From: Kordia antarctica
GTDB lineage: Bacteria > Bacteroidota > Bacteroidia > Flavobacteriales > Flavobacteriaceae
Assembly (NCBI RefSeq): GCF_009901525.1
Contig: NZ_CP019288.1
Location: forward strand, 2,695,501-2,759,500
Direction of reading: 5' to 3'
Length of the DNA stretch: 64,000 nucleotides
Both the position numbers and the translations under genes were made by a program. The notes under the pieces are model-generated. The model searched no databases. It saw only the letters and a program-made list of their open reading frames with translations, and was not told where the DNA came from. Every line of letters starts with the position of its first letter. Within the stretch, counting starts at the first letter, position 1. Below, piece after piece: positions 19,846 to 36,116 of this stretch.

Positions 19846-19850
19846 ATCAC

Positions 19851-19870
19851 ATTCCTGCAAAGGCAGGAAT
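19851..19870. repeat. 20-bp palindrome (ATTCCTGC-type)
   Basis: ATTCCTGC-AAAG-GCAGGAAT is a perfect hairpin with a 4-nt loop, 5 nt upstream of the permease start. A related, less perfect palindrome (TTCTCAC-GAAA-GTGGGAA) lies at 21397-21414, just before the ATPase start. These resemble REP-like elements spread by repair or transposition. Confidence 0.6.
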
Positions 19871-19895
19871 CTTTTTTAATTAATACTATTCTTTG

Positions 19896-20160
19896 TCTCC
19901 CGCAGATTTCACTGATAACCGCAGATGTTTTTTATAGTGCGTTTACTATTTGTTTCCCGCAGATTGCGCTGATAACCGCAGATGTTTTTACAATTAGTAT
20001 GTTTACGTTTTTATTCATTTTCTGCGCAAATCTGCAAAATCTGCGGGATTAATTTTATAGTTCGTTTGCTTTTAGTCTCCCGCGGATTACGCTGATAATC
20101 GCAGATGTTTGACGTTTGTATTTATTTTCTGCGCAAATCTGCCAAATCTGCGGGATTATT
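19896..20160. repeat. CCCGCAGATT-type inverted repeats, three units
   Basis: Three successive imperfect units (about 19896-19930, 19949-20047, 20074-20160) begin with CCCGC(A/G)GATT and continue GCTGATAACCGCAGATG. The last two close with TCTGCGCAAATCTGCnAAATCTGCGGGA, the inverse of the opening. Each is a potential long hairpin. A fourth unit is on the other side of the GxxExxY gene (20573-20657). Confidence 0.8.
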
Positions 20161-20165
20161 TTTTT

Positions 20166-20552
20166 TTATAATCCGTTTACTTTTCTAAAAATTCCTTTTG
20201 ATATATTTTCTACATTGAAGTTTACTAAAATTCCTAACTTTAAATTTGAAAGTTTTAAATAAGTCAAAACTTGCTTATGATGTACTTTTGCCAAAGTTTC
20301 TACCGATTTAATTTCTATTATCACTTTATCATTTACTAATAAATCCAATCTAAAACCTATTTCTAATTTAATACCATCATAAAATACAGGCAGTGCTACT
20401 TGCCTTTTAACAGACAATCCTTGCTTCTCTAATTCATACAATAAAACAGCTTCATAAACAGATTCTAATAAACCTGGACCTAATTCATTAAATACTTTAA
20501 AAATGGCTCCTCGGATTAGGTATGAAATATCGTTTTCTGTTTTTTGATCCAT
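20166..20552 (-). CDS. GxxExxY protein
   Basis: The 128-aa protein carries the family motif GPGLLESVYEAVLLYEL (about residues 26-42). The PD-(D/E)XK-like core FRLDLLVNDKVIIEIKSV follows at about 66-83 (D, E-x-K). The family is widespread in Bacteroidota, often in non-operonic sites flanked by repeats; its function is unproven, and a nuclease-like fold is plausible. Here it is flanked on both sides by CCCGCAGATT inverted repeats and sits inside an exporter operon, which suggests it arrived as a small unit together with the repeats. Confidence 0.85.
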   Translation of the reverse strand: MDQKTENDISYLIRGAIFKVFNELGPGLLESVYEAVLLYELEKQGLSVKRQVALPVFYDGIKLEIGFRLDLLVNDKVIIEIKSVETLAKVHHKQVLTYLKLSNLKLGILVNFNVENISKGIFRKVNGL

Positions 20553-20572
20553 AATTGTTTAATTTATTATTA

Positions 20573-20657
20573 TTTCTCCCGCTGATTTTTTTACAATTAG
20601 TACGTTTAACGTTTATATTTATTTTCTGCGCGCATCTGCGAAATCTGCGGGATTATT
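20573..20657. repeat. CCCGC-GATT-type inverted repeat, upstream copy
   Basis: The opening TCTCCCGCTGATT, the shared centre (ACAATTAGTACGTTTA) and the closing TCTGCGCGCATCTGCGAAATCTGCGGGATTA match the units at 19896-20160. It separates the ATPase gene (stop at 20662) from the GxxExxY gene. Confidence 0.75.
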
Positions 20658-20661
20658 TTTT

Positions 20662-21396
20662 TCACCCACGAGCTAATTTTAAAAACACATCGTTCATATT
20701 ATCCGCTTTAAACTGCTCTTTAAGCTTCTTCGGTGTGTCTAAAGCTTCAATTTTTCCGTTTACCATAATAGAAACGCGATCGCAATATTCGGCTTCATCC
20801 ATGTAATGTGTAGTTACAAAAACGGTCGTTCCTTGATTGGCTGCTTTGTAAATCATTTCCCAAAACTGACGTCTGGTAATCGGATCAACGCCTCCAGTTG
20901 GTTCGTCTAAAAACACAATTTTAGGATCGTGAAGTAAAGACACCGAAAAGGATAGTTTTTGTTTCCAACCTAATGGCAAGGAACCTACTAATTTATTCGC
21001 CACTTTTTCCAAACCTAATTCTTCAATCAGAACTGCCGTTTTTTCTTTTATTCGTTTTCTCGATAAACCATAAATTCCACCAAAAAAAGTAATGTTTTCT
21101 TTAACTGTTAAATCGTCATATAACGCAAATTTCTGACTCATGTAACCTATATTCTTTTTAATGTCTTCCGCTTGTGTAAACACATCAAATCCTGCTACTT
21201 TCGCTTTTCCAGAAGTTGGTTTTGAAATCCCAATCAGCATTTTTATAGCAGTTGTTTTTCCTGCACCATTTGCACCTAAGAAACCAAATATTTCACCTTT
21301 TTCAACTTCAAACGTAATAGCGTTTACTGCTGTAAAATCACCAAACATTTTGGTTAAACTTTCTACTTGTATGACTTTGTTGTTGCTCATATTCAT
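20662..21396 (-). CDS. ABC exporter ATPase (YbhF second-half-like)
   Basis: The 244-aa protein has Walker A GANGAGKTTA (about residue 40), the SLPLGWKQKLSFSVSLLHDP signature region (Q-loop/LSGG replaced by LPLGWKQ, normal for this subgroup), and Walker B IVFLDEPTGGVDP. A second ATG 6 nt downstream (MSNNKV) is an equally good start. With the ATPase upstream it gives the two NBDs that are fused in E. coli YbhF. Confidence 0.88.
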   Translation of the reverse strand: MNMSNNKVIQVESLTKMFGDFTAVNAITFEVEKGEIFGFLGANGAGKTTAIKMLIGISKPTSGKAKVAGFDVFTQAEDIKKNIGYMSQKFALYDDLTVKENITFFGGIYGLSRKRIKEKTAVLIEELGLEKVANKLVGSLPLGWKQKLSFSVSLLHDPKIVFLDEPTGGVDPITRRQFWEMIYKAANQGTTVFVTTHYMDEAEYCDRVSIMVNGKIEALDTPKKLKEQFKADNMNDVFLKLARG

Positions 21397-21482
21397 TTCT
21401 CACGAAAGTGGGAATCTTATTATTTATATTCATGCCTACAAGGTTTTAAAAACCATGAAGGATCTTTAGATACGTCTATATT

Positions 21483-22385
21483 CTATTTTGCTAATTCCAT
21501 AAATGTATCTTCAATGGTAGCTGCTGTTTTTTCTATTTCTATATTGGATAGATTTTCAGATTTTAAATACTGTATTAAATCTTTCGGATTAAAATCTGTC
21601 CTCTTATCTGTATAATGCACAAATTCGCCAAAAGGATACACGCTGTGATTGTATTCATAGGCTTTTAAACTATTTATGAGTTGATACATATTGCTTGCAC
21701 GCACATTATAAATTTGCTTTGAATAGTGTTTCACAATTGCTTTAGGTGTGTCAATTTGCAAAATTTTCCCATCTTGAATCAATGCAATTCTATCACACAA
21801 AGCAGCTTCATCCATATAAGGCGTTGAGACCAAAATGGTAATGTTTTTTTGTTGCAAACGCTTTAGCATTTCCCAGAATTCTTTTCTCGAAACTGGATCA
21901 ACTCCAGTTGTTGGCTCATCTAAAAACAACACTTTCGGCTTGTGGATTAAAGCACAACATAAAGCGAGTTTCTGTTTCATTCCGCCTGACAATTTTCCAG
22001 CTCTACGATTTTTAAAAGGCTCTATTTGAACATATATTTCTTTTATTAATTCGTAATTTTCTTCAATGGTTGTTCCAAAAATAGTTGCGAAAAAATTTAG
22101 ATTTTCTTCAACAGTTAAATCTTGATACAAAGAAAATTTCCCAGGCATATAACCAACACTATTTCGAATCTTTTTATACTCTTTTACGACATCAAAACCG
22201 GCAACAGTCGCTGTACCTTCATTCGCAATCAAAAGTGTGGTTAAAATCCGAAACAGCGTCGTTTTTCCTGCACCATCTGGACCAATAAGACCAAAAAGTT
22301 CCGCCGGTTTTACCTCAAAGGAAATGTCCTGTAAGGCGTTTACCTTTTTGTACGATTTGCTAATATGGTTTACAGAAATACTCAC
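21483..22385 (-). CDS. ABC exporter ATPase (YbhF first-half-like)
   Basis: The 300-aa protein has Walker A GPDGAGKTTL (about residue 36), signature KLSGGMKQKLALCCAL, Walker B VLFLDEPTTGVDP, and a C-terminal extension of about 70 residues. The GPDGAGKTT variant with Asp is characteristic of the N-terminal NBD of YbhF-type exporters. It starts 5 nt after the osmC stop. Confidence 0.88.
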   Translation of the reverse strand: MSISVNHISKSYKKVNALQDISFEVKPAELFGLIGPDGAGKTTLFRILTTLLIANEGTATVAGFDVVKEYKKIRNSVGYMPGKFSLYQDLTVEENLNFFATIFGTTIEENYELIKEIYVQIEPFKNRRAGKLSGGMKQKLALCCALIHKPKVLFLDEPTTGVDPVSRKEFWEMLKRLQQKNITILVSTPYMDEAALCDRIALIQDGKILQIDTPKAIVKHYSKQIYNVRASNMYQLINSLKAYEYNHSVYPFGEFVHYTDKRTDFNPKDLIQYLKSENLSNIEIEKTAATIEDTFMELAK

Positions 22386-22390
22386 AGGTT

Positions 22391-22849
22391 TTAGTTTTGA
22401 ACAATAATTTTAGTTTCCATTGTAATTTTTGAAGTAATTGAATTTGAAATTAAGCATGCTTTTTCAGATTTTTCTACAATACGTTCCGTACGATCACGTT
22501 TAGATTCGTCTGCAATTACAACTTCTGGAAATAGCAATATTTCACTTATTACAAACTTGCCATCTACTTTTTCTAAAATACCTTTTGAGTCACATTTAAA
22601 ACTGACATATTCTAGTTTTGAAAATTCAGCAATTGCTAAAAAAGTAGTCATTAAGCAACTACTTACTGCGGCCGTAAATAAATGTTCTGGCGACCAAATA
22701 TTTGGCATTCCACCAGGAAATTCTGGCGGTGTTGCAACTTCTAAGCAATTGGTTTCATTGGTTTCATTATTTTTTAATTCTGGTGAGCACATGATTCCTT
22801 TTCGGTCTTGTGTCCAACTAACATTGACGTTATACGTATGTTTTTCCAT
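22391..22849 (-). CDS. OsmC/Ohr family protein
   Basis: The 152-aa protein shows the OsmC features PNIWSPEHLFTAAVSSCLMTTFL (about 48-70) with the second-half Cys, and a closing EKACLISNSI with the other Cys (about 130), the Cys pair that reduces organic hydroperoxides. OsmC-like genes occasionally ride in exporter operons; here the gene lies between the HlyD part and the ATPases. Confidence 0.85.
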   Translation of the reverse strand: MEKHTYNVNVSWTQDRKGIMCSPELKNNETNETNCLEVATPPEFPGGMPNIWSPEHLFTAAVSSCLMTTFLAIAEFSKLEYVSFKCDSKGILEKVDGKFVISEILLFPEVVIADESKRDRTERIVEKSEKACLISNSITSKITMETKIIVQN

Positions 22850-22867
22850 GGTAATTATTTTAAATTA

Positions 22868-23353
22868 TTATTGAAAATAGGTGTTGTATCCATTAATATT
22901 CTCTTCTATACTGTGTTTTAATTTTGAAGCTTCTTCAACAGTTTTAGCTTCCGATAGTGCTTCAATTTTTTCCATTAATGGCAAAAGCCAAACGTGTAAA
23001 TTATTATGAGAATCACCTTTCATAGAGCATTTTTTTATCACATAGCTTATGTCTTTGTTTAATTGTTCTGCCAGTTTTTGATACTCTTTTAGCGTGCTCG
23101 TTTTTTGTATTTTTATGCTATTCTGCATGTTTTTCACGCCTTCATTCGTCTCTGCATTGGCTTGCCATTTTGCGCCATTGTTCATTTTAATTTCTTCTGT
23201 CCAAGTGTTCGAATAGACTGATACTTCATTAATATTTTGTTCCGTTGCGGCATTAACGGATTCTTCAATTGCCGTTGTTTTGTTTTCTTGCTGTGTATTG
23301 TCTTTACAGCCAATTAAAGCCAAGAGACTTAGTGTAAAAATTAAGTATTTCAT
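22868..23353 (-). CDS. Lipoprotein of unknown function
   Basis: The 161-aa protein has lipobox Cys at residue 16 (LLALIGCKDN), a Gln/Thr/Asn linker, and an all-alpha mature part (about 55-161) with the segment IKKCSMKGDSHNNLHVWLLPLMEKI. That pattern (C-x-M-x-G-x-x-H-x-x-L-H) suggests a small helical periplasmic domain, perhaps metal-binding through Cys, Met and His. No named family is recognised. It is co-directional with osmC, 18 nt apart. Confidence 0.6.
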   Translation of the reverse strand: MKYLIFTLSLLALIGCKDNTQQENKTTAIEESVNAATEQNINEVSVYSNTWTEEIKMNNGAKWQANAETNEGVKNMQNSIKIQKTSTLKEYQKLAEQLNKDISYVIKKCSMKGDSHNNLHVWLLPLMEKIEALSEAKTVEEASKLKHSIEENINGYNTYFQ

Positions 23354-23470
23354 AGTTTGAGTTTTAGTAATTATATAGTTATTAATATGAGTTCGATATA
23401 AGTTTCACAAGCAGCCTTTGAGTTATTTTTAATAAAATTTCAACATAAAAACCTCATTTATAGATCTTTA

Positions 23471-23665
23471 TTTTCTTTATCTTTACTCGCACAAAGAATA
23501 CTGAATCAAGTTCAGCACAGGCTTCAACAAAAGAAAGTGCGTTTTTCCAGAGGTGTTTTTAGTTTTTTCTCTGAAAAACTAAAACCGCATTCATTTTTCT
23601 AAATTTTTTCCAAGGCTTCAAAAATTCTTAACGAAAAATGCCTGCTACACTTCGGAAAAAGAACG
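23471..23665 (-). repeat. ~195-bp 3'-UTR-associated dispersed repeat, copy A
   Basis: It is nearly identical to 52785-52985 and closely similar to 38777-39025. Shared landmarks are ACTCGCACAAAGAATACTGA or GCTCGCACAAAGAATACTGA, AAAGAAAGTGCG, a hairpin built from TTTTTAGTTTTT / GAAAAACTAAAA, and ATTCTTAACGAAAAATG. This copy begins about 45 nt after the hlyD stop codon (reading the minus strand). Confidence 0.85.
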
Positions 23666-23709
23666 AATTGCGTGAAAAAATCAATTCTTATTATATCGAA
23701 CTGACGTAA

Positions 23710-24600
23710 TTAATTTTTTAGCCACATTTCCGCAGGCATGCCGATTTTCAGGCTTTCATCATTAGTTACATCTATTTTAACTGCGTAAACTAAAGCGACA
23801 CGTTCTTCTTTTGTTTGAATGATTTTTGGTGTGAATTCGGCTTCCGAAGCTATCCAACTCACAATTCCATTATAGGATTTCATAGCAGTTTCAGCATCGA
23901 TTTTCACAGTTACTTCTTGTCCAATTTTTATAGTTGCTAATTGTGTTTCACTAATGTATACTCGTAATTGCATTGTACTTAAATTAGCAATTTTATAAAG
24001 CGGTTTTCCAAAAGCGGTAATTTCATTTGGCTCTGCATATTTGGTCAAAACCGTTCCTTTTATTGGATTGATGATTTTACTTTTCTGGATTTGATTATCA
24101 ATTTGTTTCAGCTGAACATCAATCGATTTAAGTTCATTTACAACTGGCGCATTCTGGATTTCAACACTTCTAATTTGACTTTTAATTACATCAATTTCCC
24201 CAGAAATATCATCCAATTGTTTTTGCGTTCCTGCATTGTCTTTTATTAAATTTTCAGTTCTTGTTTTGTTGATATTTGCTGTTTTTAATTTAGCATTTAA
24301 TACATTTATTTGAGATAAAACACCTTTTGATTTGGAGCTAATTACTGCTTTTGATACTTCTAATTGTTCCCGTTTTAATGCGAGTGGAATTGTATCGATA
24401 TAACCAATAAATTGTTCTTTTTGAAGCAAATCGCCTACATTTACATCAAATTGCATGAGTTTTCCGTTATTTTCGGCTGAAATCATAATTTCTGTAGCTT
24501 CAAAATTTCCGTAACCAGCAGCTTTTCTAGTGTCGTTTCCACAGGAAAATAAACTAAACGCTATCATGCATAATCCTATTATATAGTTGTAATTTTTCAT
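23710..24600 (-). CDS. HlyD-family periplasmic adaptor of the exporter (YbhG-like)
   Basis: The start at 24600 (MKNYNYIIGLCMIAFSLFSC) gives a lipoprotein signal with Cys at residue 20; the frame upstream to 24630 is not needed. The 296-aa protein has a lipoyl/barrel-sandwich start (ISAENNGKLMQFDVNVGDLL), a coiled-coil hairpin (about 80-165), the return lipoyl half (KIINPIKGTVLTKYAEPNE) and a beta-barrel end. It links the inner-membrane ABC pump to the TolC channel upstream in the operon. Confidence 0.88.
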   Translation of the reverse strand: MKNYNYIIGLCMIAFSLFSCGNDTRKAAGYGNFEATEIMISAENNGKLMQFDVNVGDLLQKEQFIGYIDTIPLALKREQLEVSKAVISSKSKGVLSQINVLNAKLKTANINKTRTENLIKDNAGTQKQLDDISGEIDVIKSQIRSVEIQNAPVVNELKSIDVQLKQIDNQIQKSKIINPIKGTVLTKYAEPNEITAFGKPLYKIANLSTMQLRVYISETQLATIKIGQEVTVKIDAETAMKSYNGIVSWIASEAEFTPKIIQTKEERVALVYAVKIDVTNDESLKIGMPAEMWLKN

Positions 24601-24610
24601 GTTTCTATTT

Positions 24611-25861
24611 TTATTGTCCTTTAATGACATTGTAATTTGCTTTCGCGAGCTGTAACTGAATTTTATGCTTTACTAGTGTATTTTCATCTTCGTATAAATT
24701 GGTGAGTTCTGTGATGTATGCCGAAGCAGTAATTACACCATTTTTAAGTTGCGAATCTGCCGATTTTAGCACTTCTTTTCTAAGATTAATTATTTCTAAA
24801 TCTGAAGTAATAAAGGCTTTCGTTTTATCAATTTCCTTTTGTTGCTGATTCAGTTCTATGTTTGTATTTAATTTGAATATTTCGGTTTCAGTATCTACAA
24901 TATCTTTGTTGATTGTTAAGGATTCGCGTTGTTTTTTATTCGAATTCCAATCGAAAACATTCCAATTCAATTTAATCCCAATTGTATAAAATGGTTGAAA
25001 AGAATTATCGAGCATATTTAATCCTGGATTGCCATAACCACCAATTGCAAAACCAACTAATTTTGAAGAATTTTGTTTATGGATTAAGCTTTCTGAGTTT
25101 TCAATTTCTTCTTTTTTTAGTTGAAATAATGCTAATTCAGGTCTGTTTAATTCTTTTTGGAATTCTGTTTCTATAAGTGGATTTTGGAAAACGGTAGAAG
25201 CATCTAATGGTCGATTTATTAAACTTGCAAGCGTTTCAATAAGTGCTGTTTTATTACTTTCTAATTCTTGAAATTGCTGACTTATTTTTAACAATTCGGC
25301 TTCCAAAATTTTATCAGAAGAAGGTAAAATAGCGCCATATTTAATACCCGATTTTACTTCTTTAAGTTTAGCTTGTAATTGTACTTGTTTTGCATTTAAT
25401 AACAACTCAGATTCTTGTGTTAATAAAATAGAGAAATAGAGTTGATTGATTTGCTGTTTTAACTGATATAAACCAACCTCAATTTGTTTTTGTTTCGTTT
25501 TAAGTTGAGCAGATTTTAATTTTAACGAAGCGTCAACTAAACCTCCATTATAAATTAATTGATTTACAGAAACCGTTGCGCGATATTGATCTTTGTTTAA
25601 CGATTCTATATTTGCATTCGGAATAGGAATCTCGATCACTTCAGATTGATACGTTGCTTGTGCATCCAAACTTAATTGCGGTAATTTTGAAGTAGAAATA
25701 ACTGCTGCATCTAATTTATTTTGCGTCTCAAAGAGTAGCAATTGTTTTGCCAAAGGATAATTCTCGATTACCAAATCGTAACATTCCTCTAACGTGATGC
25801 GTTGTTGTGCAACACTTGGCAACGTAATTAAGATGATAAGAATGATTATAAAACGTTTCAT
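24611..25861 (-). CDS. TolC-family outer-membrane efflux channel
   Basis: The 416-aa protein has a signal peptide (ITLPSVAQQ, residues ~10-18) and the opening ITLEECYDLVIENYPLAKQ of outer-membrane efflux proteins. Two repeats of long helices and strands follow (IGIKLNWNVFDWNSNKKQRE near residue 295). It is the outer channel of the YbhGFSR-type pump. It lies 2 nt after tetR's stop and just before hlyD. Confidence 0.9.
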   Translation of the reverse strand: MKRFIIILIILITLPSVAQQRITLEECYDLVIENYPLAKQLLLFETQNKLDAAVISTSKLPQLSLDAQATYQSEVIEIPIPNANIESLNKDQYRATVSVNQLIYNGGLVDASLKLKSAQLKTKQKQIEVGLYQLKQQINQLYFSILLTQESELLLNAKQVQLQAKLKEVKSGIKYGAILPSSDKILEAELLKISQQFQELESNKTALIETLASLINRPLDASTVFQNPLIETEFQKELNRPELALFQLKKEEIENSESLIHKQNSSKLVGFAIGGYGNPGLNMLDNSFQPFYTIGIKLNWNVFDWNSNKKQRESLTINKDIVDTETEIFKLNTNIELNQQQKEIDKTKAFITSDLEIINLRKEVLKSADSQLKNGVITASAYITELTNLYEDENTLVKHKIQLQLAKANYNVIKGQ

Positions 25862-25862
25862 T

Positions 25863-26477
25863 TTATGAGTTCTTTATAGCATTGATAATAAAATTAGAAA
25901 CTTCTATTTTTCGGTCTTCCATGAGTTGTTTATAGTTTTTTTCATCTGTATTTGTAAATGCCATGATTAAAGGTTTTGCCACAAATGGAAAAATATTTAA
26001 AGCCATAATATTGATGAATAATTGTTCTGCACTAATCGGTTTTAAGATGCCTTTTTGAATTTCTTCTTCTACTTGTTTTTTGAATTTCTCAAGATTTGGA
26101 AAACCTTTATTTTCCTTCAATTTTAGAATAAAATCTGGATTTCTATTGAGTTCTTGAATGATAAAATTTGGCAAATAAGGATGTTTAACGATGAATGATA
26201 TATAGTTTGAAGTAAAGTTTTTTATTTTCTCTTCTATAGAAGAATCATCATTTAGAATTGCATTTAATTGAGGTGCTAATAATGAAAATGCATTTTTAAA
26301 TACGGCTTCAAAAAGTAATTGTTTACTTCTGTAATAATAGTGAAGCATCGCTTTGTTAATGCCTGCTTTATCTGCAATTTCTTGCATGCGCGCACCATTC
26401 ATTCCTTTAGACTGAAATACATTTTTTGCAGCGTCTAATATGTGTTCTTCTTTATTTTCGTCTTTTGCTTTTTTCAT
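25863..26477 (-). CDS. TetR-family transcriptional regulator
   Basis: The 204-aa protein has an N-terminal helix-turn-helix (about 10-55; ILDAAKNVFQSKGMNGARMQEIADKAGINKAMLHYYY is the TetR signature). A helical ligand-binding domain follows. As first gene of the exporter operon it probably represses its own operon and senses an exported compound, like CecR of E. coli. Confidence 0.92.
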   Translation of the reverse strand: MKKAKDENKEEHILDAAKNVFQSKGMNGARMQEIADKAGINKAMLHYYYRSKQLLFEAVFKNAFSLLAPQLNAILNDDSSIEEKIKNFTSNYISFIVKHPYLPNFIIQELNRNPDFILKLKENKGFPNLEKFKKQVEEEIQKGILKPISAEQLFINIMALNIFPFVAKPLIMAFTNTDEKNYKQLMEDRKIEVSNFIINAIKNS

Positions 26478-26906: not shown

Positions 26907-26953
26907 CTTAGTAGCGGGAACTGGACTCGAACCAGTGACCTTCGGGTTATGAG
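26907..26953 (-). repeat. attL/attR-type direct repeat: 3' half of tRNA-Met (left copy)
   Basis: The 47 bp are identical to 35981-36027, which is the anticodon-to-3' end part of the intact tRNA-Met(CAT) plus its immediate flank. The identity breaks at the anticodon loop, leaving only half a tRNA here. This is the classic footprint of site-specific integration at a tRNA 3' end. Confidence 0.85.
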
Positions 26954-27038
26954 TCGAAAAGTCTAAAAACTAATAGACTGATTTCGTGTTATTTAAAAAG
27001 CATCAATTTACAAAAACCATACTTTTCATATACAAAAC

Positions 27039-27062
27039 GATACTTTAAAAAGATACTTTTTT
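27039..27062 (+). repeat. Paired GATACTT motif near left island end
   Basis: GATACTTTAAAAAGATACTTTT; a near copy GATACTTATAAAAGATACTTT lies at 35772-35797 near the right island end, same orientation. Placement just inside both ends suggests recombinase arm-type sites, which is inference. Confidence 0.35.
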
Positions 27063-27709
27063 ATTTTCTCTTTATAAAGGTCATTCGATAGAGTTTAATT
27101 AATACTTTTATTGATGCAAATCTGTTCTATTTTAATCTCAAGTCACATGAATATAAATTCCACAAACAGATTCAAATCAGATCGACTTCCCAAAGGACAA
27201 CTCCAAGCTATATATTGGCTTTTTCTTTCATCAATATCAAAATGACAAGTATCTTCTCTACTGCAATTCTTTTAAATACAAAAATTATGTGCTTCAGCTG
27301 TAATTTGGTTTCGGATTGCTTAAACATATAAATATATGCACCAAGTTACTATGATCTCTTAGCTAATTGTCTAATATGCAATTGAAACTCCAATAAAATA
27401 TATAAAGCTAACGGCAATATGTGAATTTATACAAGTTCAAAAAAATTGAAAGAAACAATATTGGGAATTCTCCCATGAATTGATTTTGAAAATATAAGAA
27501 ATTAAGATGTTTTTAAATCAAAAACCAACTCTATTTTACAAAAATGTAAGTTTAAACCTTATATATATTACGTTTTTTTTTTAAAACACATAAGACTATT
27601 ATTATTATATTGCGATGTAATATAGTTGTTTAAAACAAATTATTTAATCGTACAGTAAGATTTTTAATCATATATTTTGAATGTACGTAATCGCACAAAT
27701 AACCCTACA

Positions 27710-30121
27710 ATGAATTTTTCCAAATACATTTTATTCCTTCTAAGTTTCTCGTATGTGTCGCAAGCACAAACAGAGATTACAGGAAATGTTGTTGACGATA
27801 CTGATGCAGCTATTGAGTTTGCAAATGTAATTTTATTAGATCAAAATAATGATATAGTAATAGGGACAATTACAGATGAAAATGGAAAATTTATATTGAA
27901 AGCTTCAAAGGGAAATTATAGGTTACTCATTAGTTTTTTAGGTTTTGATGATTGGAAGAAAAACATTTCATTACTCAATACTGTTTCGCTTGGAAAAATA
28001 GTATTGACAACAAGCGAGAATGAATTAGAAGCAGTTACAATTACTGCTAGGAAACCAACCTTGGTTAAAAAAGTAGATCGTATAGAGTTTAACATAGGTA
28101 ATACAATATTATCTGATGGTGACGCTTGGGAAGCTCTGAAAAAAACACCTGGAGTTGCCGCTTCCGCAACGGGATCATTACAAATTTTTGGAAAATCGGG
28201 AATATTAGTCATGATTGATGATCGTCCTGTTCAATTATCTTCTGAAGAACTCAAAAATATGCTCGAAGGCATGTCTGCGTCGGAAATAAAGTCAATAGAA
28301 GTGATTACAAATCCACCTGCAAAATACGATGCCGAAGGAAATGGAATTATCAATATAGTTTTAAAAGAGAAAAAAAGCTTAGGGTACAATGCTTCTGTTT
28401 CTTCTAGATATACACAAGGAGTTTTTGCAAAGTTTACCAATGGCGCAAGCATAAATCACAAAGGAGAAAAAACGACTGTTGCTGCGAATTACAATTTGGG
28501 TAACGGGAAAAGAAATGTGGAGGAAAATAGTGATATTAATTTTCTCAATACGCAAGGTGATGTTTTTAATTTTTGGAATGAATCTTCCGATAGAACAACA
28601 GATTATCTGTCACACAACTTTAGAGCTTCGCTAGATTATTATCTATCAGAAAAAAGTATTTTGGGTGTAAAAATTGATGGAAGTATTGCTCCAAAACAAG
28701 AAACAGTAAACAAAACAATTACAAATGTGTTTGATAGTACAAATACATTAGATTCCCTTTTCGTAAATAACAACAGTACTGATAGAGATCGTGAAAATTT
28801 ATCATACAATGTTAACTTTCTTCAGAATTTTAAAAAAGATGGACAATCACTTTCTGTAGATTTTGATTTTGTAGATTATAATAGTAGTAGGAGTCAAGGT
28901 GTAAATACAGATTTTTTTAATGAAAATCAAAACTTTGAAAGAAACGAGTTTTTCACTTCAACAAGTGAACAAGATATTGAAATATATAGTTCAAAAGTAG
29001 ATTATGCGCATCCGATAGATTCTACTCGTAGTTTTGAAGTTGGAGCCAAATTTTACAACATCCAAACGGATAATGCTTTAGTCTATCTAAATAGAGATAA
29101 TACAACAGGAAATTTAATTTTTGATGCTACCCGAAGTAACCAATTTTTATACAGTGAAAAAGTATATGCAAGTTATGCTTCCTTTGAAAAAAACTTTTCA
29201 AAACTGTATCTAAAACTAGGATTACGAGCGGAATATACGGAAACACAAGGTAATTCTATTACCTTAAATCAAGTAACAAACAATGATTATTTTGAGCTTT
29301 TCCCATCAGCATTTTTACAATATCAATTAAAGGAAGGAAGTTCGTTAGGATTAAATTACAGTAGAAGAATACAAAGACCTAATTACTCATTATTGAATCC
29401 GTTTCAGTTTTTCTCAAGTCCGTTCAGTTTTATTGAAGGAAATCCATTCTTACAGCCTTCTTTTTCGGACAAATTTGAACTCTCATACAGTATAAATAAC
29501 AAATACTTTTTAACGCTGTATTACACATACACGGATGCACCGTTTACGCAATTATCAACACAAGACAACGCGAGTCAAACATTTAGGTATAACGCAGTGA
29601 ATTTGGATAAAGATATTATTTATGGAGTCTTTTTCATGACTTCGTTTGGTGTAACAGATTGGTGGCAATGTTATATGAACTTTGATGCATATTTCAATGA
29701 ATTTGAATTTGCTGCGCCTGGTACTGACCAACTAGTCACAAATGGTAGATGGGTAACTTCTCCATACATATGGAATGAGTTTTCGGTATCTAAAAAGCAT
29801 GACTTATCAGTAGAATTAACGGCACAATATTATTCGCCAAGAGTTCAAGGAGGATTTGATATTCAAGAGCGATCGGAAGTTTCTATAGGTGTAAAAAAGA
29901 AGTTATTCAATAAAAAGGGAAGCTTAGCTATATATGTTGCTGATATTTTTGACAATAACAAGTTTACATTAGTTTCTGACTATGCTTTGCAAAATCACAT
30001 ATTCAGAGAAAATCCCGAGAATCAATATGTTCGTTTCTCTTTTAGCTACCGATTTGGAAATAACGGAATTAAAACTAGAAAACGTAAAGACGGCACTCAA
30101 GACGAAAAAAATAGACTATAA
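27710..30121 (+). CDS. TonB-linked outer-membrane beta-barrel receptor with carboxypeptidase-like N-domain
   Basis: The start at 27710 (MNFSKYILFLLSFSYVSQAQ) gives a signal peptide; a TTG 33 nt upstream is less likely. The 803-aa protein has a CarboxypepD_reg-like domain (about residues 22-100, EITGNVVDDTDAAIEFANVI). A plug-like region follows (SATGSLQIFGKSGILVMIDD near 160), then a 22-strand-type barrel of the outer membrane beta-barrel family (PF14905 type). It lies inside the tRNA-bounded island, 73 nt upstream of the RiPP precursor and in the same direction. Possible roles are uptake of, or receptor for, the peptide; the pairing is positional only. Confidence 0.87.
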   Translation: MNFSKYILFLLSFSYVSQAQTEITGNVVDDTDAAIEFANVILLDQNNDIVIGTITDENGKFILKASKGNYRLLISFLGFDDWKKNISLLNTVSLGKIVLTTSENELEAVTITARKPTLVKKVDRIEFNIGNTILSDGDAWEALKKTPGVAASATGSLQIFGKSGILVMIDDRPVQLSSEELKNMLEGMSASEIKSIEVITNPPAKYDAEGNGIINIVLKEKKSLGYNASVSSRYTQGVFAKFTNGASINHKGEKTTVAANYNLGNGKRNVEENSDINFLNTQGDVFNFWNESSDRTTDYLSHNFRASLDYYLSEKSILGVKIDGSIAPKQETVNKTITNVFDSTNTLDSLFVNNNSTDRDRENLSYNVNFLQNFKKDGQSLSVDFDFVDYNSSRSQGVNTDFFNENQNFERNEFFTSTSEQDIEIYSSKVDYAHPIDSTRSFEVGAKFYNIQTDNALVYLNRDNTTGNLIFDATRSNQFLYSEKVYASYASFEKNFSKLYLKLGLRAEYTETQGNSITLNQVTNNDYFELFPSAFLQYQLKEGSSLGLNYSRRIQRPNYSLLNPFQFFSSPFSFIEGNPFLQPSFSDKFELSYSINNKYFLTLYYTYTDAPFTQLSTQDNASQTFRYNAVNLDKDIIYGVFFMTSFGVTDWWQCYMNFDAYFNEFEFAAPGTDQLVTNGRWVTSPYIWNEFSVSKKHDLSVELTAQYYSPRVQGGFDIQERSEVSIGVKKKLFNKKGSLAIYVADIFDNNKFTLVSDYALQNHIFRENPENQYVRFSFSYRFGNNGIKTRKRKDGTQDEKNRL

Positions 30122-30194
30122 TCACTTAAAATATTGTCCTGTTCATGACATTAAAAGGAGCAAAAAAATTATTATTAATATAAATTTATTAACC

Positions 30195-30362
30195 ATGAAA
30201 GTAAAATTTTCAAAACAAGACCGTGAAGCATTAAGCAAGTCTTTAGCATCATTCGAAAATGACAAGTTAAAAGAAGTATTAAATGTTTCTGGAGCTCAAG
30301 CCAAAATTTCAACTTGGGAAAGATCCGTATGGCAAAAAACTAGTGATTTATCATTAGCATAA
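30195..30362 (+). CDS. RiPP precursor peptide, triceptide/cyclophane-type
   Basis: The 55-aa peptide starts at ATG 30195. The leader (residues 1-34) is charged and helical (FSKQDREALSKSLASFEND). It ends LKEVLNVSGA with E at -8, V at -7, V at -4, G at -2 and A at -1 if cut after Ala34, which fits C39-peptidase (double-glycine type) processing by the ABC exporter downstream. The 21-residue core from Gln35 holds W41-E42-R43 and W46-Q47-K48. W-x-R/K/N motifs are the substrates of three-residue cyclophane-forming radical SAM enzymes, and WQK parallels the WSK ring of darobactin. The assignment rests on these motifs and the neighbours. A hairpin separates it from the enzyme genes. Confidence 0.78.
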   Translation: MKVKFSKQDREALSKSLASFENDKLKEVLNVSGAQAKISTWERSVWQKTSDLSLA

Positions 30363-30377
30363 GCTTAAAGGAAAATT

Positions 30378-30414
30378 TAAGGGAAGATCTGTGATTTTCA
30401 TCGATCTTCCCTTA
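30378..30414 (+). terminator. Attenuator hairpin after the RiPP precursor
   Basis: TAAGGGAAGATC and GATCTTCCCTTA form a perfect 12-bp stem with a 13-nt loop, 15 nt after the precursor stop. It is followed by TTACTTAAT rather than a pure T run, so it probably terminates partially. That would yield far more precursor mRNA than enzyme mRNA, as in many RiPP operons. Confidence 0.75.
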
Positions 30415-30638
30415 TTACTTAATCTTCATAAAAAACAATAATAATACATTTTTTCAAATCATTAGCTTACTATTAATAGATGAAAATAAAAATATCATTT
30501 AAATGTTTTTAAAGCTGTATAACATACAATTTTAACCAAAGAGAAGTGTGTATACTTGAAACAAATCCATTTAAAAAACTCCTCAATTAATTTTAATTAA
30601 GCATAGAAAAAGAATAATTAATTTTAAAAATAGCACAT

Positions 30639-31823
30639 ATGGAAATTTCAGATACCGCTTTAAAATGCAGATTTGCAATTATAAAAATAGCAAGTCGATG
30701 CAACTTAAACTGCACATATTGTTATGTATATAATAAAGGAGATTTCTCATATCTCTTACAGCCAAAAGTAATGTCTAACGATACCGTAGACAGCTTCGTA
30801 TTACAAACAAAAAAGCATTGTGTGGCACACAATATTAAAGAATTCATATTCATATTTCACGGAGGCGAACCTTTATTGGCGGGAAAAGAATTTATTCAAT
30901 ATTTTGTAGACAAAGTAAATCTTGAATTTTCTGAAATAACTACGCGTCCACGATTTACGGTACAAACAAATGCCGTTTTACTCGATAAAGAATGGTGTGA
31001 ATTATTCGATTCACTAAAGATTTCTGTCGGGATTAGCATTGATGGTCCAAAAGTATACAATGATCAAAATAGAGTGTATCATTCTAAAAAAGGATCTTAT
31101 GATGATATAGTAAAAGGAATTAATAAAGTAAAAAAGTATGGTAAATCTTCGCTAGGAATTTTATCAGTACTCAACATAGAAATTCCACCGAAAGAAATGT
31201 ATGATTTCTTTGTTGATTTGAATGTTCCAACGGTTAATATTCTATTGCCAGATGGAAATTATGATAATCCACCAGAAGGTTTGGAAGATGATAATAATAG
31301 TTTAGCGTATTCTGATTGGCTGATAGAACTATTTGATCTTTGGTATGATGATAAAAGCAAAATGAACATATCATTATTTAAAAATCTCATATTCTTAATT
31401 CTTGGTCATAAAGTTTCTGCAGACGAATTTGGTACAGGAACTACAGATGCCCTTGTCATTGAAACTAATGGAGCTATTGAACCTTTAGACGTTTTAAAAA
31501 TCTGTGGTGACGGATTTACCCTTGGAGATGCTAATGTAAATAATACATCATTCGACGAAGCATTAAACACACCTTTAGCAAAACGATACCAACTAAGTCA
31601 TAAAATATTAGCTAAAAAATGTCAAGAATGTCTTGTAAAAGACATCTGCGGAGGCGGAAACTTACCACACAGATATTCTAGCGAAAATGACTTTGACAAT
31701 CCAAGCATATACTGTCCTAATTTATATAAATTAATATCACACATTCAAAATAGAGTCATTGCTACACTGCCTGAAGATTTAGTAAGAGATTCTGGAATTG
31801 TGAAATTAGAATTCACCAACTAA
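30639..31823 (+). CDS. Radical SAM/SPASM peptide maturase, FxsB-like
   Basis: The 394-aa protein has the radical SAM triad C21-x3-C25-x2-C28 (RCNLNCTYCYVYNKGD) and HGGEPLL at 74-80. The SPASM-like end has C289, C328, C331, C337 and C359. The tail CGGGNLPHRYSSENDFDNPS closely follows the FxsB subgroup (CGGGxxPHRYxxGxGFDNPS...C). FxsB-like enzymes install C-C crosslinks between an aromatic residue and the beta-carbon of the residue two places on. The likely substrate is the 55-aa peptide 277 nt upstream. In the actinobacterial FxsB form an HExxH domain is fused to the C-terminus; here it is the next gene, 2 nt away. Confidence 0.9.
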   Translation: MEISDTALKCRFAIIKIASRCNLNCTYCYVYNKGDFSYLLQPKVMSNDTVDSFVLQTKKHCVAHNIKEFIFIFHGGEPLLAGKEFIQYFVDKVNLEFSEITTRPRFTVQTNAVLLDKEWCELFDSLKISVGISIDGPKVYNDQNRVYHSKKGSYDDIVKGINKVKKYGKSSLGILSVLNIEIPPKEMYDFFVDLNVPTVNILLPDGNYDNPPEGLEDDNNSLAYSDWLIELFDLWYDDKSKMNISLFKNLIFLILGHKVSADEFGTGTTDALVIETNGAIEPLDVLKICGDGFTLGDANVNNTSFDEALNTPLAKRYQLSHKILAKKCQECLVKDICGGGNLPHRYSSENDFDNPSIYCPNLYKLISHIQNRVIATLPEDLVRDSGIVKLEFTN

Positions 31824-31825
31824 TT

Positions 31826-32911
31826 ATGGAGCTACAAAGAAAGAACATAGATATTACTATTGCGAAAAAGGCACTTGAATTCTCAACTAGTAATTTCTTA
31901 GAATACAATAAGGTTGTGGACGCAGAATTTAGCGTATTAGTTGATACAAATATGAAGAAATTAGTAGCAGCATATCCTATATTAAAAAAAACATTTGACA
32001 ATTTACCGAAAGAGCAGCAAAATGAACTGATGTTTGCTCCAGAAATGTTGCGCTTATTATTTTATCCTGATGGAATTTTGGGAGATGAAAAATTAGAGCA
32101 TTTCTTAGGAATGGTTATTGAAGCTCAAAATGCGAAAATCACAGCAAAATTTGATCATAAAAAATATGGGCGTTCCATATGGACAGCAAATGGTTCTTTT
32201 ATGATTTCTTTTGACGAAAAAACTAATACGTTTTCTACGTTTCACCAATCTTGTTTATCCAATACTGAAATAACACAAGACTATTTTAGTCATTTCAACT
32301 TGATGAATTCTGCGGACGAAAATCATTTTTCAGAAGAAGTAGTTCCTTCATTATATTCTTTTGAAGAAGCAGATGTACTCGAATTAAAAATAGATGAAAC
32401 ATATGATAAATTAGAAACATCATTTCAAGACTTTGTTCGTCTATTTACCAACGTATTACTGCTCAAAAAAACAAATATTGATAGTTTCAAATCGGTTACA
32501 GATAACACACACATTAACAGAGTTATTATTTGTAACGGACATAGCGTTGAACTTGAAATATTAGCAGAAGCATTCATGCATGAAGCTACACACGGCTTGC
32601 TAACCATCATAGATATATTCAATCAATGGCAACCTGGAAACGAAGAAACCACTATTTTGGGCAGAACTATTCGTTCGCCGTGGACGGGTAATTTATTGAC
32701 AATAAAAAACCTAGTGCAGGCAGTTTATGTTTGGTATGGACTCTATAATTTTTGGGGAACAAAACCAGCAAACTTTGATTTAAAATATGCGGAAGATCGC
32801 GTTGAATTTATCGCAGAAGGCTTCAAAAAATTAGATATGGAGCCATATAGAAATATTCTTAGTACATTAACGTTTTCAGAAATCGGATCTATTAAAAATA
32901 ATTTCCAATAA
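31826..32911 (+). CDS. HExxH-type protein, predicted peptide beta-hydroxylase partner of the radical SAM enzyme
   Basis: The 361-aa soluble protein is mostly helical. HEATHGLLTIID contains the HExxH motif at residues 252-256, and AEDRVEFIAEGF follows at 322-333. This is the arrangement of the HEXXH motif domain (TIGR04267-like) family, which pairs with FxsB-type enzymes. Some members are iron/2-oxoglutarate-dependent peptide beta-hydroxylases rather than proteases. I infer hydroxylation of the same precursor. A protease role is the alternative. It lies 2 nt after the radical SAM gene and 3 nt before the exporter, so it belongs to one operon. Confidence 0.8.
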   Translation: MELQRKNIDITIAKKALEFSTSNFLEYNKVVDAEFSVLVDTNMKKLVAAYPILKKTFDNLPKEQQNELMFAPEMLRLLFYPDGILGDEKLEHFLGMVIEAQNAKITAKFDHKKYGRSIWTANGSFMISFDEKTNTFSTFHQSCLSNTEITQDYFSHFNLMNSADENHFSEEVVPSLYSFEEADVLELKIDETYDKLETSFQDFVRLFTNVLLLKKTNIDSFKSVTDNTHINRVIICNGHSVELEILAEAFMHEATHGLLTIIDIFNQWQPGNEETTILGRTIRSPWTGNLLTIKNLVQAVYVWYGLYNFWGTKPANFDLKYAEDRVEFIAEGFKKLDMEPYRNILSTLTFSEIGSIKNNFQ

Positions 32912-32914
32912 TCA

Positions 32915-35128
32915 ATGCTTCTTAAAAAGTTTCCATTTTATCATCAAATTTCTAACAAAGATTGTGGACCTACTTGTTTGCGCATCATAAGTAAACATTA
33001 TGGCAGAGTTTTGTCTTTTAAAGATTTAGATAAAGAAATTTTGTCATACGATGGACTTGTGATTAACGATTTAGAAACGCTAGCTTCAAAGCTCGATTTT
33101 CAAAGTATGGTAGTGAAAACTGATTTTGAATCTTTAGAAAACAAAGCACCATTGCCATTTATTGCACATTGGAATCAAAATCATTATGTAGTAGTCTATA
33201 AAATTACGGAAACGCATGTGCATGTCGCAGATCCTGCTTTTGGAAAAACAAAATATACAACGGAAGAATTTTTAAAATGTTGGCTTCCAGTTACTGAAAT
33301 AAGTACACAACAAAAAGGAATTGCACTTTTATTGGAACCTACTGACGCATTTTTTGAAGAAACTCAAAAAGAAGAAGAGTCAAGCAATCCGTTCAAAGCA
33401 TTTCTATTTCTAAAAAAATATTTCTCACTATATAAATTTCACCTTTCACAGCTGCTAATAGGCTTATTTCTTGGAAGTTTATTGCAATTTGTCTTTCCTT
33501 TTCTGACCAAAGCTATTGTAGATTTTGGAATAGAAACGGGCAATGTTGAGTTTTTAGTATTTGTATTAATTGCGCAAGTTGTGCTATTTTTATTGAGTAT
33601 CGGAATCGAATTTCTACGTGCACATTTACTCATTCACATTAGCAGTCGGATCAACATATTTATCATTTCTGATTTCTTTGTAAAAGTAATGAAACTTCCT
33701 ATTAGTTTTTTTACATATAAAATAACTGGCGATTTAACGCAGCGAATTCGCGATCATGATAGAGTTGAGAAATTCATCTCAAATTCGCTTTTAAAAAGTA
33801 TTTTCTCCGTATTTAGTATTACTGTATTCAGTATTGTGCTGTATATATTCAGTGAAATAATATTTCTCATCTTCATTGTCGGAATCACAATTGAGTTGGC
33901 ATGGATATTTTACTTCTTAAAGAAAATAACGATTTTAGATCAGAAAAGTTTTTCGCTCAATGCCGAAGATCAGAATAAAGTTTTTGAACTTATTACTGGA
34001 ATACAAGATATAAAACTGAATAATATTGAAGATAAAAAACGTTGGGAATGGGAAAAAATACAATTGAATAGGTTTAACATTGCGATCAAAAAATTAAAAC
34101 TGAATCAATTACAAGAAGGTGGACAACGCTTTTTTAGTTACATACAAATCATACTCATTACTTTTTTCTCTGCATTTTTAACTATTCAAGGAGAATTGAG
34201 TTTGGGTTCTATGATGGCAATTATTTTCATTATTGGACAAATGAGTGGTCCCATAGGGCAATTAATCAATTTTATTCTTGAAGGACAATTAGCGAAATTG
34301 AGTATTGATAGACTCATCGAAATTCATGAAAAAGAAGAAGAAAAACAAAGCGATTTAACGAATGTAGCTGCTCTTTTGGAGCATGACATTGAAATCAAAG
34401 ATATGGAATTTTCATACACAGGAAGATTAAAAGATTCCGTTATCAATAAGCTAAATTTAACCATTCCTAAAGGGAAAATATCAGCTATTGTTGGTATGAG
34501 TGGAAGCGGAAAAACAACGCTATTAAAACTACTGCTAAAATTTTATGAACCTACAAGTGGTCAAATCATTCTTGGAGACACTGACCTTACAGACATTAAC
34601 AATAGTTCTTGGAGAAGTAAATGTGGAGCTGTATTACAAGATAGTTTTATTTTCTCAGAAAGTATTGCTAATAATATTGCACTCAATGAAAACTATAATG
34701 AAGCTGTAAATCATGAAAAACTTGCGCAAGCATGTCAAACTGCAAACATCCATGAGTTTATTGAAGGTTTACCCTCAAAATATGAAACAAAAATTGGACA
34801 GTACGGAATTGGTTTGAGTCAAGGGCAAAAGCAACGATTGCTTATTGCAAGAGCTATTTATAAAAATCCTGATTATTTATTTTTCGATGAAGCAACTAAT
34901 TCATTAGATGCTGAAAATGAAAAAGTAATCATTGAAAATCTTGAAGAAATTTATAAAGGAAAAACGGTTATCATTGTTGCACACAGACTCAGTACTGTAA
35001 AAAATGCAGATCAAATTATTGTAATGGATAAAGGACGGATTGACGAAATAGGAACACACAAAGAATTAATTGAAAACAAAGGAAAATATTTTAATTTAAT
35101 CAAAAATCAACTAGAACTTGGATCGTAA
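32915..35128 (+). CDS. C39-peptidase-containing ABC exporter (PCAT) for the RiPP
   Basis: The 737-aa protein has three domains. A C39 peptidase (about 1-140) has catalytic Cys17 (SNKDCGPTCLRII) with a matching His in NHYVVVYK and Asp in VADPAFGK. A six-helix membrane domain (about 160-450) follows. The NBD has Walker A GMSGSGKTT (from 527), signature GIGLSQGQKQR and Walker B YLFFDEAT. It would cut the leader after the GA site and export the modified core. The stop overlaps the next gene by 11 nt. Confidence 0.93.
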   Translation: MLLKKFPFYHQISNKDCGPTCLRIISKHYGRVLSFKDLDKEILSYDGLVINDLETLASKLDFQSMVVKTDFESLENKAPLPFIAHWNQNHYVVVYKITETHVHVADPAFGKTKYTTEEFLKCWLPVTEISTQQKGIALLLEPTDAFFEETQKEEESSNPFKAFLFLKKYFSLYKFHLSQLLIGLFLGSLLQFVFPFLTKAIVDFGIETGNVEFLVFVLIAQVVLFLLSIGIEFLRAHLLIHISSRINIFIISDFFVKVMKLPISFFTYKITGDLTQRIRDHDRVEKFISNSLLKSIFSVFSITVFSIVLYIFSEIIFLIFIVGITIELAWIFYFLKKITILDQKSFSLNAEDQNKVFELITGIQDIKLNNIEDKKRWEWEKIQLNRFNIAIKKLKLNQLQEGGQRFFSYIQIILITFFSAFLTIQGELSLGSMMAIIFIIGQMSGPIGQLINFILEGQLAKLSIDRLIEIHEKEEEKQSDLTNVAALLEHDIEIKDMEFSYTGRLKDSVINKLNLTIPKGKISAIVGMSGSGKTTLLKLLLKFYEPTSGQIILGDTDLTDINNSSWRSKCGAVLQDSFIFSESIANNIALNENYNEAVNHEKLAQACQTANIHEFIEGLPSKYETKIGQYGIGLSQGQKQRLLIARAIYKNPDYLFFDEATNSLDAENEKVIIENLEEIYKGKTVIIVAHRLSTVKNADQIIVMDKGRIDEIGTHKELIENKGKYFNLIKNQLELGS

Positions 35129-35552
35129 TAAATTCATATCACATAGAGCGCCTGAAACAGCAGCAATACTCAAAACAATTCCGGGTTCGGCTTTGCGTTG
35201 GGGCATGTTTTTCATGAGCTTACTTGTGGCGCTAGTCATATATGCAAGTATCCATTTAATCTACTTTGACTATGATGAAGAAATTGACGTTTATCAAATT
35301 GACTCAAAGAACTTACGCATCAATCAACTTACACTTAAAAGTAAAGACTTAAATAAGATCACACACATTTCGATAGGAAATCAAACATTAAAAAAAGATA
35401 AAGATTTTCAATTCATTATGGTACCTGAAAAACCAATCGTTATAGAATTTCTCACGTATAGGTTAGATTTAAAAAAAGAAAATGAATTCAAAATTAAAAT
35501 TCAAAAGAAAGAGAGTTTATCCAAAATCATAATTGGGGATTTATTTAATTAA
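35118..35552 (+). CDS. Reduced HlyD-like adaptor protein
   Basis: The 144-aa protein starts with the segment seen at the N-terminus of flavobacterial HlyD-type adaptors of bacteriocin exporters (SHRAPETAAILKTIPGSALRWG). One membrane helix (about 28-50) and an ~95-residue periplasmic part of beta strands and Lys-rich turns follow. The coiled-coil hairpin and most of the barrel-sandwich core of a 400-residue HlyD protein are missing, but the gene is intact with a normal stop. It could be a shortened accessory subunit. It overlaps the exporter gene by 11 nt, so translation is coupled. Confidence 0.65.
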   Translation: MDRNKFISHRAPETAAILKTIPGSALRWGMFFMSLLVALVIYASIHLIYFDYDEEIDVYQIDSKNLRINQLTLKSKDLNKITHISIGNQTLKKDKDFQFIMVPEKPIVIEFLTYRLDLKKENEFKIKIQKKESLSKIIIGDLFN

Positions 35553-35578
35553 TTTTTCCAAAAAATATTTTCTGAACA

Positions 35579-35722
35579 ATCCTAAAACAAGTTCACAGTT
35601 TTTATATAAATTAAGTCAGAGAAGTTAACTTCTGTGTTTTTTTACCTCACACAAAAATTAGTGTTTGAAAGTTAGTACTTCAATGAGGTATTTTATCATT
35701 TTCACAATTTCCAATGAATTAA
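35579..35722. repeat. Dispersed ~135-bp intergenic repeat, copy 2
   Basis: It is similar to 1851-1990 and shares the 14-bp palindrome AGAAGTTAACTTCT (35620-35633) and the segments around it in the same order. It starts 26 nt after the last island gene. Confidence 0.65.
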
Positions 35723-35771
35723 TAAAGAACAATAATGGCTCAACACAATAATTTGATTTTTTCAATGAATA

Positions 35772-35797
35772 GATACTTATAAAAGATACTTTTTTTC
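35772..35797 (+). repeat. Paired GATACTT motif near right island end
   Basis: GATACTTATAAAAGATACTTT resembles the motif at 27039-27062; a weaker form (GATACAGATAAAAGATGG) lies outside the left boundary near 26691. The last one sits at the same distance from its tRNA end as this copy, so the right end and the left flank are related. Confidence 0.35.
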
Positions 35798-35950
35798 AGT
35801 ACTTAATATAGCATTTCGGTCATTTTAAAGCGTAAATAGAATGTATTTAATTGATTTTCAATAGATTAAAATTATTCATTTTCTAATTTAGGGAAGTGAC
35901 CTCTAGGTGGCATTTTACACCATTTTTCATCAAATAGAGACCTATATAAA

Positions 35951-35980
35951 CGAAAAAAGCACTGAAAACCAGTGCTTTAT
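35951..35980 (-). terminator. Terminator of tRNA-Met
   Basis: AAAGCACTG and CAGTGCTTT form a perfect stem with A/T tracts immediately after the tRNA 3' end on the minus strand. If the island model is right, this terminator was brought in by the element. Confidence 0.7.
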
Positions 35981-36057
<77 letters not shown>

Positions 36058-36116
36058 GCTATTGGATTGCAAATATACAATCATTTTTAATTCTAGCAAG
36101 AAAAAAATAAACTTTT

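Follow-up and report, generated by a model that had tools for sequence, protein, structure and literature searches.

How does a processed peptide leave a diderm Bacteroidota cell? To our knowledge, this exit is poorly worked out, and a gene cluster in Kordia antarctica raises the question anew. The cluster lies in a 64,000-nucleotide stretch of contig NZ_CP019288.1 (positions 2,695,501 to 2,759,500; hereafter the window, numbered from its first base), within a 5.50 Mb genome assembled as a single contig. A first-pass annotation had described here a probable operon for a ribosomally synthesized and post-translationally modified peptide (RiPP) of the triceptide or cyclophane type. Our analysis points to an acquired cassette that would make an oxidized double-ring peptide, export it through a C39-peptidase ATP-binding cassette (ABC) transporter and use a TonB-receptor-like barrel at the outer membrane; taken as a whole, we consider this account reasonably likely. 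The elements of the cluster are:

27677..30121, + strand: PF14905 (OMP_b-brl_3) outer-membrane beta-barrel gene (Pfam E 2.4e-101; in-frame ATG at 27710)
30195..30362, + strand: precursor of 55 aa, ATG start (aligned with six orthologues)
30378..30414, + strand: RNA hairpin in the spacer that separates the precursor and radical SAM genes (z −4.58)
30639..31823, + strand: radical S-adenosylmethionine (SAM)/SPASM peptide maturase of probable cyclophane type, 394 aa (NCBIfam YhhB/FxsB scores, PDB 9gm3)
31826..32911, + strand: HExxH protein with an α-ketoglutarate (αKG)-dependent oxygenase fold, 361 aa (HEATH at residues 252–256)
32915..35128, + strand: C39 peptidase-containing ABC exporter, 737 aa (PF03412, PF00664, PF00005)
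35118..35552, + strand: mini-adaptor (HlyD N-terminus plus one membrane helix), 144 aa, TTG start (hhalign to HlyD)

The five co-directional open reading frames (ORFs) from the precursor to the small membrane protein, our mini-adaptor, proved correct in position, strand and spacing, with gaps of 2 nt and 3 nt downstream of the radical SAM gene and then an 11-nt overlap between the last two genes. The left limit of the annotated unit (30195..35552) did not stand, since the unit starts earlier, with the barrel gene at 27677. Although the precursor reading frame extends further upstream (ATG at 29982, 126 aa), we set its start at 30195 because the orthologues support it. Hairpins of differing sequence occupy the equivalent site in all four relatives that were folded (L011, L012, L013 and L016; z −3.2 to −4.5); an element of this kind 3′ of the precursor stop probably damps or processes read-through and so keeps the precursor in excess. 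Across the window, a Bacteroidota promoter consensus gave 3 matches against 5.6 expected, none of them near the operon.

Relatives were sought by scanning genome contigs with a two-sequence alignment and two short peptide patterns, so that relatives without these patterns were missed; 7 of 250 candidate stretches were confirmed. Six belong to Tenacibaculum caenipelagi, T. discolor, three Flavobacterium and Chryseobacterium indologenes; the seventh, from a Cupriavidus, has a different radical SAM gene. The six Bacteroidota loci share the order barrel, precursor, radical SAM, HExxH, C39-ABC and small membrane protein, and their radical SAM, HExxH and ABC proteins are 35–73% identical to those of the window. 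Given this recurrent order and the conserved precursor, which sits beside the maturase gene in all six orthologous operons as the first-pass annotation would have it, the operon is beyond chance. Among evenly drawn genomes the HExxH protein was rare (1/11 in the genus, 1/397 in the family and 1/395 in the phylum, each time only the window's own genome); the family and phylum draws missed the Tenacibaculum, Flavobacterium and Chryseobacterium loci found by the pattern scan. Protein P0004 had no match among plasmids.

The barrel gene is part of the RiPP system. Its TonB-receptor-like product (803–814 aa, with a carboxypeptidase-regulatory-like N-terminal domain) matches PF14905 with 340.2 bits against a cut-off of 27, and PF00593 as well. 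We classified 26 Bacteroidota clusters (the window, L011–L016, L028–L036, L043–L048, L052–L054 and L008), and in 14 of them a barrel adjoins the precursor/radical SAM pair; with random neighbors the expected adjacency is ~0.06, calculated from 11 strong PF14905 matches in the genome and ignoring shared descent. Barrel neighbors were identified from BLAST matches to two barrels, a procedure that would overlook barrels of other types.

On the inner-membrane side, matches to PF03412 (E 7.5e-33), PF00664 (E 4e-29) and PF00005 (E 3.9e-31) confirm the predicted C39-peptidase exporter, whose peptidase domain would cut after Gly33-Ala34 of the precursor while the ABC protein carries the core into the periplasm. 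The adjoining adaptor held up in part. Aligned with a full HlyD by hhalign, the mini-adaptor matches over residues 7–59 (probability 92.1, E 6.2e-7) and thus consists of the N-terminal ~50 residues of HlyD, including its anchor region, and a short tail. The match stops at residue 59, and the long periplasmic body with its hairpin and lipoyl domains is absent from the 144 residues, so this is not a complete adaptor; the full HlyDs encountered in the analysis measure 432 and 464 aa. Searches of Pfam and NCBIfam gave the mini-adaptor no match of its own. Because only the inner-membrane anchor of HlyD remains, a continuous HlyD-TolC duct is unlikely.

Adaptor length and barrel vary together. Wherever a short adaptor follows the ABC gene (141–144 aa in the window, L011, L012 and L030; 41–43 aa in L013–L016, L031 and L043), the barrel is present directly upstream of the precursor (10/10 clusters). 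Clusters with a 238-aa protein (L008) or a full 432-aa HlyD (L032) in the adaptor's place have no barrel. The ABC gene of L046 is broken and its barrel absent, and in L044 the ABC gene lies upstream of the barrel. Apart from the cassette exporter, one ABC transporter of the genome matches PF03412 almost in full; it is accompanied by a 464-aa HlyD and by no barrel. ColV-type export by a peptidase-containing ABC transporter, a membrane fusion protein and TolC, as presented in the accessible part of PMC10352776, shares the C39-ABC exporter and the HlyD N-terminal anchor with the cassette, which differs in lacking the HlyD periplasmic body and a TolC gene and in containing a TonB-receptor-type barrel. 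Closer on the barrel side are the Bacteroidetes graspetide loci of PMC8939145, where, in the available portion of that paper, PF14905 is among the families at RiPP loci (31 occurrences) and TonB-receptor-related proteins are predicted to serve export, with cluster numbers that disagree between text and table. Those loci use an ATP-grasp maturase, whereas the features here are a truncated adaptor and co-segregation.

Phylogenies separate the export genes from the modification genes. The radical SAM tree groups the seven HExxH loci (100/99), while the ABC and barrel trees group L013–L016 with the HExxH-less L031 and L043 (ABC 100/100; barrel 99/97 and 98/97). In approximately unbiased (AU) tests, the radical SAM data rejected the export-side grouping (p 5.6e-7), and the HExxH grouping was rejected by the ABC (p 1.5e-67) and barrel (p 1.6e-4) data. 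Barrel, transporter and mini-adaptor therefore co-segregate against radical SAM and HExxH, and on the simplest reading there are two inherited units, the precursor with radical SAM and HExxH, and the barrel with ABC and mini-adaptor. The barrels of the 14 clusters fall into three clades, two of which have as closest kin other barrels of the window's genome (L059; L060 and L061) that have no radical SAM gene of this maturase family as a neighbor, which suggests that the link between barrel and RiPP arose or was renewed more than once.

The borders of the cluster are marked by a direct repeat at a tRNA gene:

26907..26953, no strand: left copy of a perfect 47-bp direct repeat (tRNA-Met 3′ half plus four bases), presumed attachment site
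35981..36027, no strand: right copy of the 47-bp direct repeat, mostly within tRNA-Met
35985..36058, − strand: tRNA-Met (CAT), presumed integration site (ARAGORN; Rfam tRNA)

The two copies are identical (47/47 bp), lie 9,074 bp apart copy to copy and enclose exactly six genes; a 22-mer derived from the repeat occurs only twice in the genome with at most one mismatch. A tRNA 3′-end repeat at both borders is the arrangement of an integrative element, and the unit 26907–36027 would thus be an acquired RiPP cassette that lacks its own recombinase: no ORF longer than 44 aa lies between the left repeat and the barrel, and the cassette has no further ORF of recombinase size. That the repeat-bounded unit which would have moved includes the barrel favors treating the barrel as a component of the system. 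The flanking ABC-F gene is present in 11/11 genus genomes, all 11 loci contain the 22-mer, and tRNA-Met was found in all nine of the longer stretches. At these nine congener stretches no cassette gene was matched among the first ORFs listed (at most 12 per stretch), and the neighbors vary, including a tyrosine recombinase (L091) and large serine recombinases (L093 and L094); the window's genome encodes three homologues of the serine recombinase at other sites. In a congener, a sister cassette without HExxH (L030:5314–12723) is inserted where a comM-like Mg-chelatase gene ends; a 29-bp repeat derived from this gene's 3′ end stands at both borders, its copies 7,381 bp apart.

Several side observations concern these borders. 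The tRNA-Met beside the ABC-F gene (window 35985–36058, L091–L099) looks like an integration hotspot in the genus. In genome G009 (L094), another unit of ~5 kb, bounded by repeats and free of recombinase genes, is placed between the tRNA and a gene for a serine recombinase; the 3′ end of that gene overlaps the second copy of the repeat. Immediately beyond the left repeat of the window cassette, on the minus strand (window 18739–26477), lies an efflux set with a TetR regulator (PF00440) and with ABC-2 permease/ATPase, membrane-fusion and outer-membrane-factor-like genes, all but the regulator named from reading the translations.

The precursor reads MKVKFSKQDREALSKSLASFENDKLKEVLNVSGA / QAKISTWERSVWQKTSDLSLA, the slash marking the presumed C39 cut. 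Its leader ends in Gly33-Ala34, and the core QAKISTWERSVWQKTSDLSLA holds the ring motifs W41-E-R43 and W46-Q-K48. Invariant positions in the seven aligned precursors include K4, F5, S6, D9, E11, L13, K15, S16, F20, N22 and L25 in the leader region, and G33, A34, R43, S44 and W46. The W-x-R and W-x-K motifs of the window correspond to W/F-x-R pairs in the six orthologues, and the core consensus is aromatic-x-R-S-x-W-x-[R/K]. Both conservation and the two motifs bear out the first-pass choice of precursor, and a triceptide system is marked by conserved aromatic-x-x motifs in a precursor that adjoins a cyclophane-type radical SAM gene. Arg, Lys or Glu stands at +2 of every aromatic residue (W, F, Y, H) in 7/8 cores tabulated, the exception being L043. 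The cores of three relatives without HExxH follow a similar motif logic (AWEEAWGESWGESWAES in L030, AYSR..EWGK..WSR in L031 and WTQHSSWTKHS in L043); the L030 core has four W-x-E triplets.

The maturase had been called FxsB-like. Its place among the cyclophane-family radical SAM peptide maturases is supported by the match to the radical SAM domain of ChlB (PDB 9gm3, E 1.6e-73), but it is nearer to YhhB (NF041707; 375.1 bits, cut-off 445; five relatives scanned gave 344.7–377.4) than to FxsB (TIGR04269; 342.6 bits, cut-off 370) and falls below both cut-offs. In the part of PMC11002830 available, three-residue rings are given as Trp-Cβ(Arg) for XncB and Tyr/His-Cβ(Arg) for YhhB. By this analogy we predict two three-residue cyclophanes in the window peptide: the maturase would join the Trp ring of W41 to R43 and that of W46 to K48, at −2 Da each, so that the modified part would be the C-terminal 21 residues. 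The YhhB/FxsB systems resemble the cassette in a maturase that aligns over the whole domain and, for YhhB substrates, in aromatic-x-Arg motifs; the cassette differs in its scores, in its pair of Trp-x-Arg and Trp-x-Lys, and in its export side of barrel, C39-ABC and mini-adaptor.

A separate HExxH protein is present, as annotated, and has the ChlH/SjiH fold with the HExxH element, in a comparison that covered the families on the VIA list. The expected TIGR04267 membership was borne out by the fold and not by the score (20.9 bits, cut-off 40; two relatives scanned gave 24.3 and 29.0). The split of maturase and HExxH into two genes, formerly read as setting the system apart from actinobacterial ones, is no novelty: a radical SAM gene of the same kind accompanies a separate HExxH gene in Rhizobium (L078, L079) and in the actinobacterium Nocardia (L018). 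On a Rhizobium etli plasmid (L007), a separate HExxH gene adjoins a radical SAM gene of another kind, as it does in Cupriavidus (L017); the short precursors of these two loci share AAFVDFNSGCG, and L007 also has JmjC and GNAT genes. ChlB/ChlH (9gm3, 8s5f) and SjiH (22nu, 22ob) share the fold and active-site landmarks (HExxH, and SPW in ChlH) with the window protein, and ChlB provides a radical SAM partner; the differences are the separate HExxH gene, the low TIGR04267 score and the cores. At the Gln298 site, all seven Bacteroidota HExxH proteins have Gln, whereas ChlH and the six non-Bacteroidota sequences collected have His. We considered Gln298 as a unique altered metal ligand and dropped the idea, since the solved SjiH has Gln too, and we therefore make no claim of new chemistry from it.

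The HExxH protein would act second, oxidizing the peptide once its rings are in place (+16 Da, or a different two-electron oxidation). The target residues of ChlB are Asp and His according to the introduction of PMC12636437. Neither is conserved in the cores of HExxH-containing clusters, so the oxidized residue is probably a different one. Judging from the alignment, the invariant candidates are Arg43 and Ser44, so that the first ring or its immediate surroundings would be the most likely place of oxidation.

A number of observations weigh against this account. PF14905 genes are common (19 matches in the window's genome); 4 of the 14 barrel-linked clusters (L028, L033, L034 and L044) have no C39-ABC gene downstream; and the 41–43-aa adaptors match HlyD weakly (probability 23%). 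The AU-test groupings were chosen after the trees had been seen, the ABC tree leaves the position of L030 open, and barrel and radical SAM identities correlate over the 14 clusters (r 0.82), so that exchange is the exception and not the rule. Maturase and HExxH protein both score under curated cut-offs. Border repeats of at least 29 bp occur in only 2/10 modules; the other eight lack any exact repeat of more than 13 bp in the 2.5 kb flanking either side (~340 bases downstream for L014), and we rejected repeat bounding as a general feature. Finally, the genome encodes a full-length HlyD at another site and no search for TolC-like proteins was made; a normal duct could therefore be supplied in trans.

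This last point opens the strongest competing explanation, that such a duct releases the peptide and the PF14905 protein re-imports or senses it, as with a signal or a metallophore-like compound. The resemblance of PF14905 proteins to TonB-dependent receptors, including the PF00593 match, fits a receptor, and we give this possibility somewhat less than an even chance. It sits poorly with the ABC tree, in which the ten mini-adaptor proteins lie on one side of a branch (100/100) and L032 and L077 (paired with full HlyD), L008 (with the 238-aa adaptor) and L044 on the other. The co-segregation of barrel clade with adaptor length likewise suggests an export unit, and the cassette contains no regulator or further uptake gene. 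Co-segregation would also be unexpected if the barrel conferred immunity, as a resistant form or decoy of the peptide's outer-membrane target of the sort that a darobactin-type RiPP would need; moreover, the darobactin target is BamA and not a PF14905 protein (PMC12079272, in the part available). The constant position of the barrel in the mini-adaptor modules, the use of barrels of different subfamilies by different modules and the lack of an immunity-suggesting family match in any other gene of the window cassette would suit such a factor, which nevertheless seems to us unlikely. Less likely still, and in our view improbable, is a role of the HExxH protein as a leader-trimming protease and not an oxygenase: the motif itself allows it, and the related PflC hydrolyses a truncated substrate without leader (PMC12636437, same partial source), while the fold is that of the αKG-HExxH oxygenases. 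We favor a barrel that would serve the outer-membrane step of an oxidized double-ring peptide, as exit route or cognate receptor, with antagonism or signaling as the probable biological role.

Two further types of radical SAM cluster occur in the same genome. A second cyclophane-type cluster (L028, C1:1535000–1548000), seen also in L033, L034 and L044, combines a barrel, a precursor ending in YDK and a radical SAM gene followed by three or four tandem proteins of 278–309 aa; two of these had no match in Pfam, and for five (four from L028, one from L045) NCBIfam gave none better than E 0.03. The third (L029, C1:1640000–1656000; also L035) has GG-type precursors with RCPDG(F/Y)YW motifs, two in L029 and one in L035, and neither a transporter nor a barrel adjoins it. 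Elsewhere in the window, the translations from 6613–12455, read by eye, resemble those of a nitrous oxide reductase (nos) gene set.

Cyclophane maturases, HExxH oxygenases, C39 export and PF14905 near Bacteroidetes RiPP loci have each been published separately, as far as the accessible parts of PMC11002830, PMC12636437, PMC10352776 and PMC8939145 show. Our literature search found no description of the present architecture, and within its reach what is new is how the genes are combined, a loss of the adaptor body by degrees that goes with barrel type, the exchange of modules, and cassettes that carry no recombinase; the surprising parts are the export side and the cassette structure. Only tentatively do we extend this to a wider proposal, which we hold to be rather doubtful in its entirety: Bacteroidota RiPP cassettes bounded by attachment sites and free of recombinases, in which the peptide would pass the outer membrane by way of a dedicated TonB-receptor-like barrel that works with a relic HlyD anchor, and modules for modification and for export would each be swapped as a unit. 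In the branch analyzed here, an unclassified αKG-HExxH oxygenase would act on a double Trp cyclophane, probably at Arg or Ser and not at Asp or His.

For the enzyme class, the two-ring peptide and its unclassified oxygenase would provide an added substrate, and the cassette is a small, sharply bounded gene set for heterologous expression. For the Bacteroidota, because an anchor-only adaptor pairs with the barrel in every such cluster and exists in two matched versions, the cassettes would allow a direct test of an alternative route across the outer membrane.

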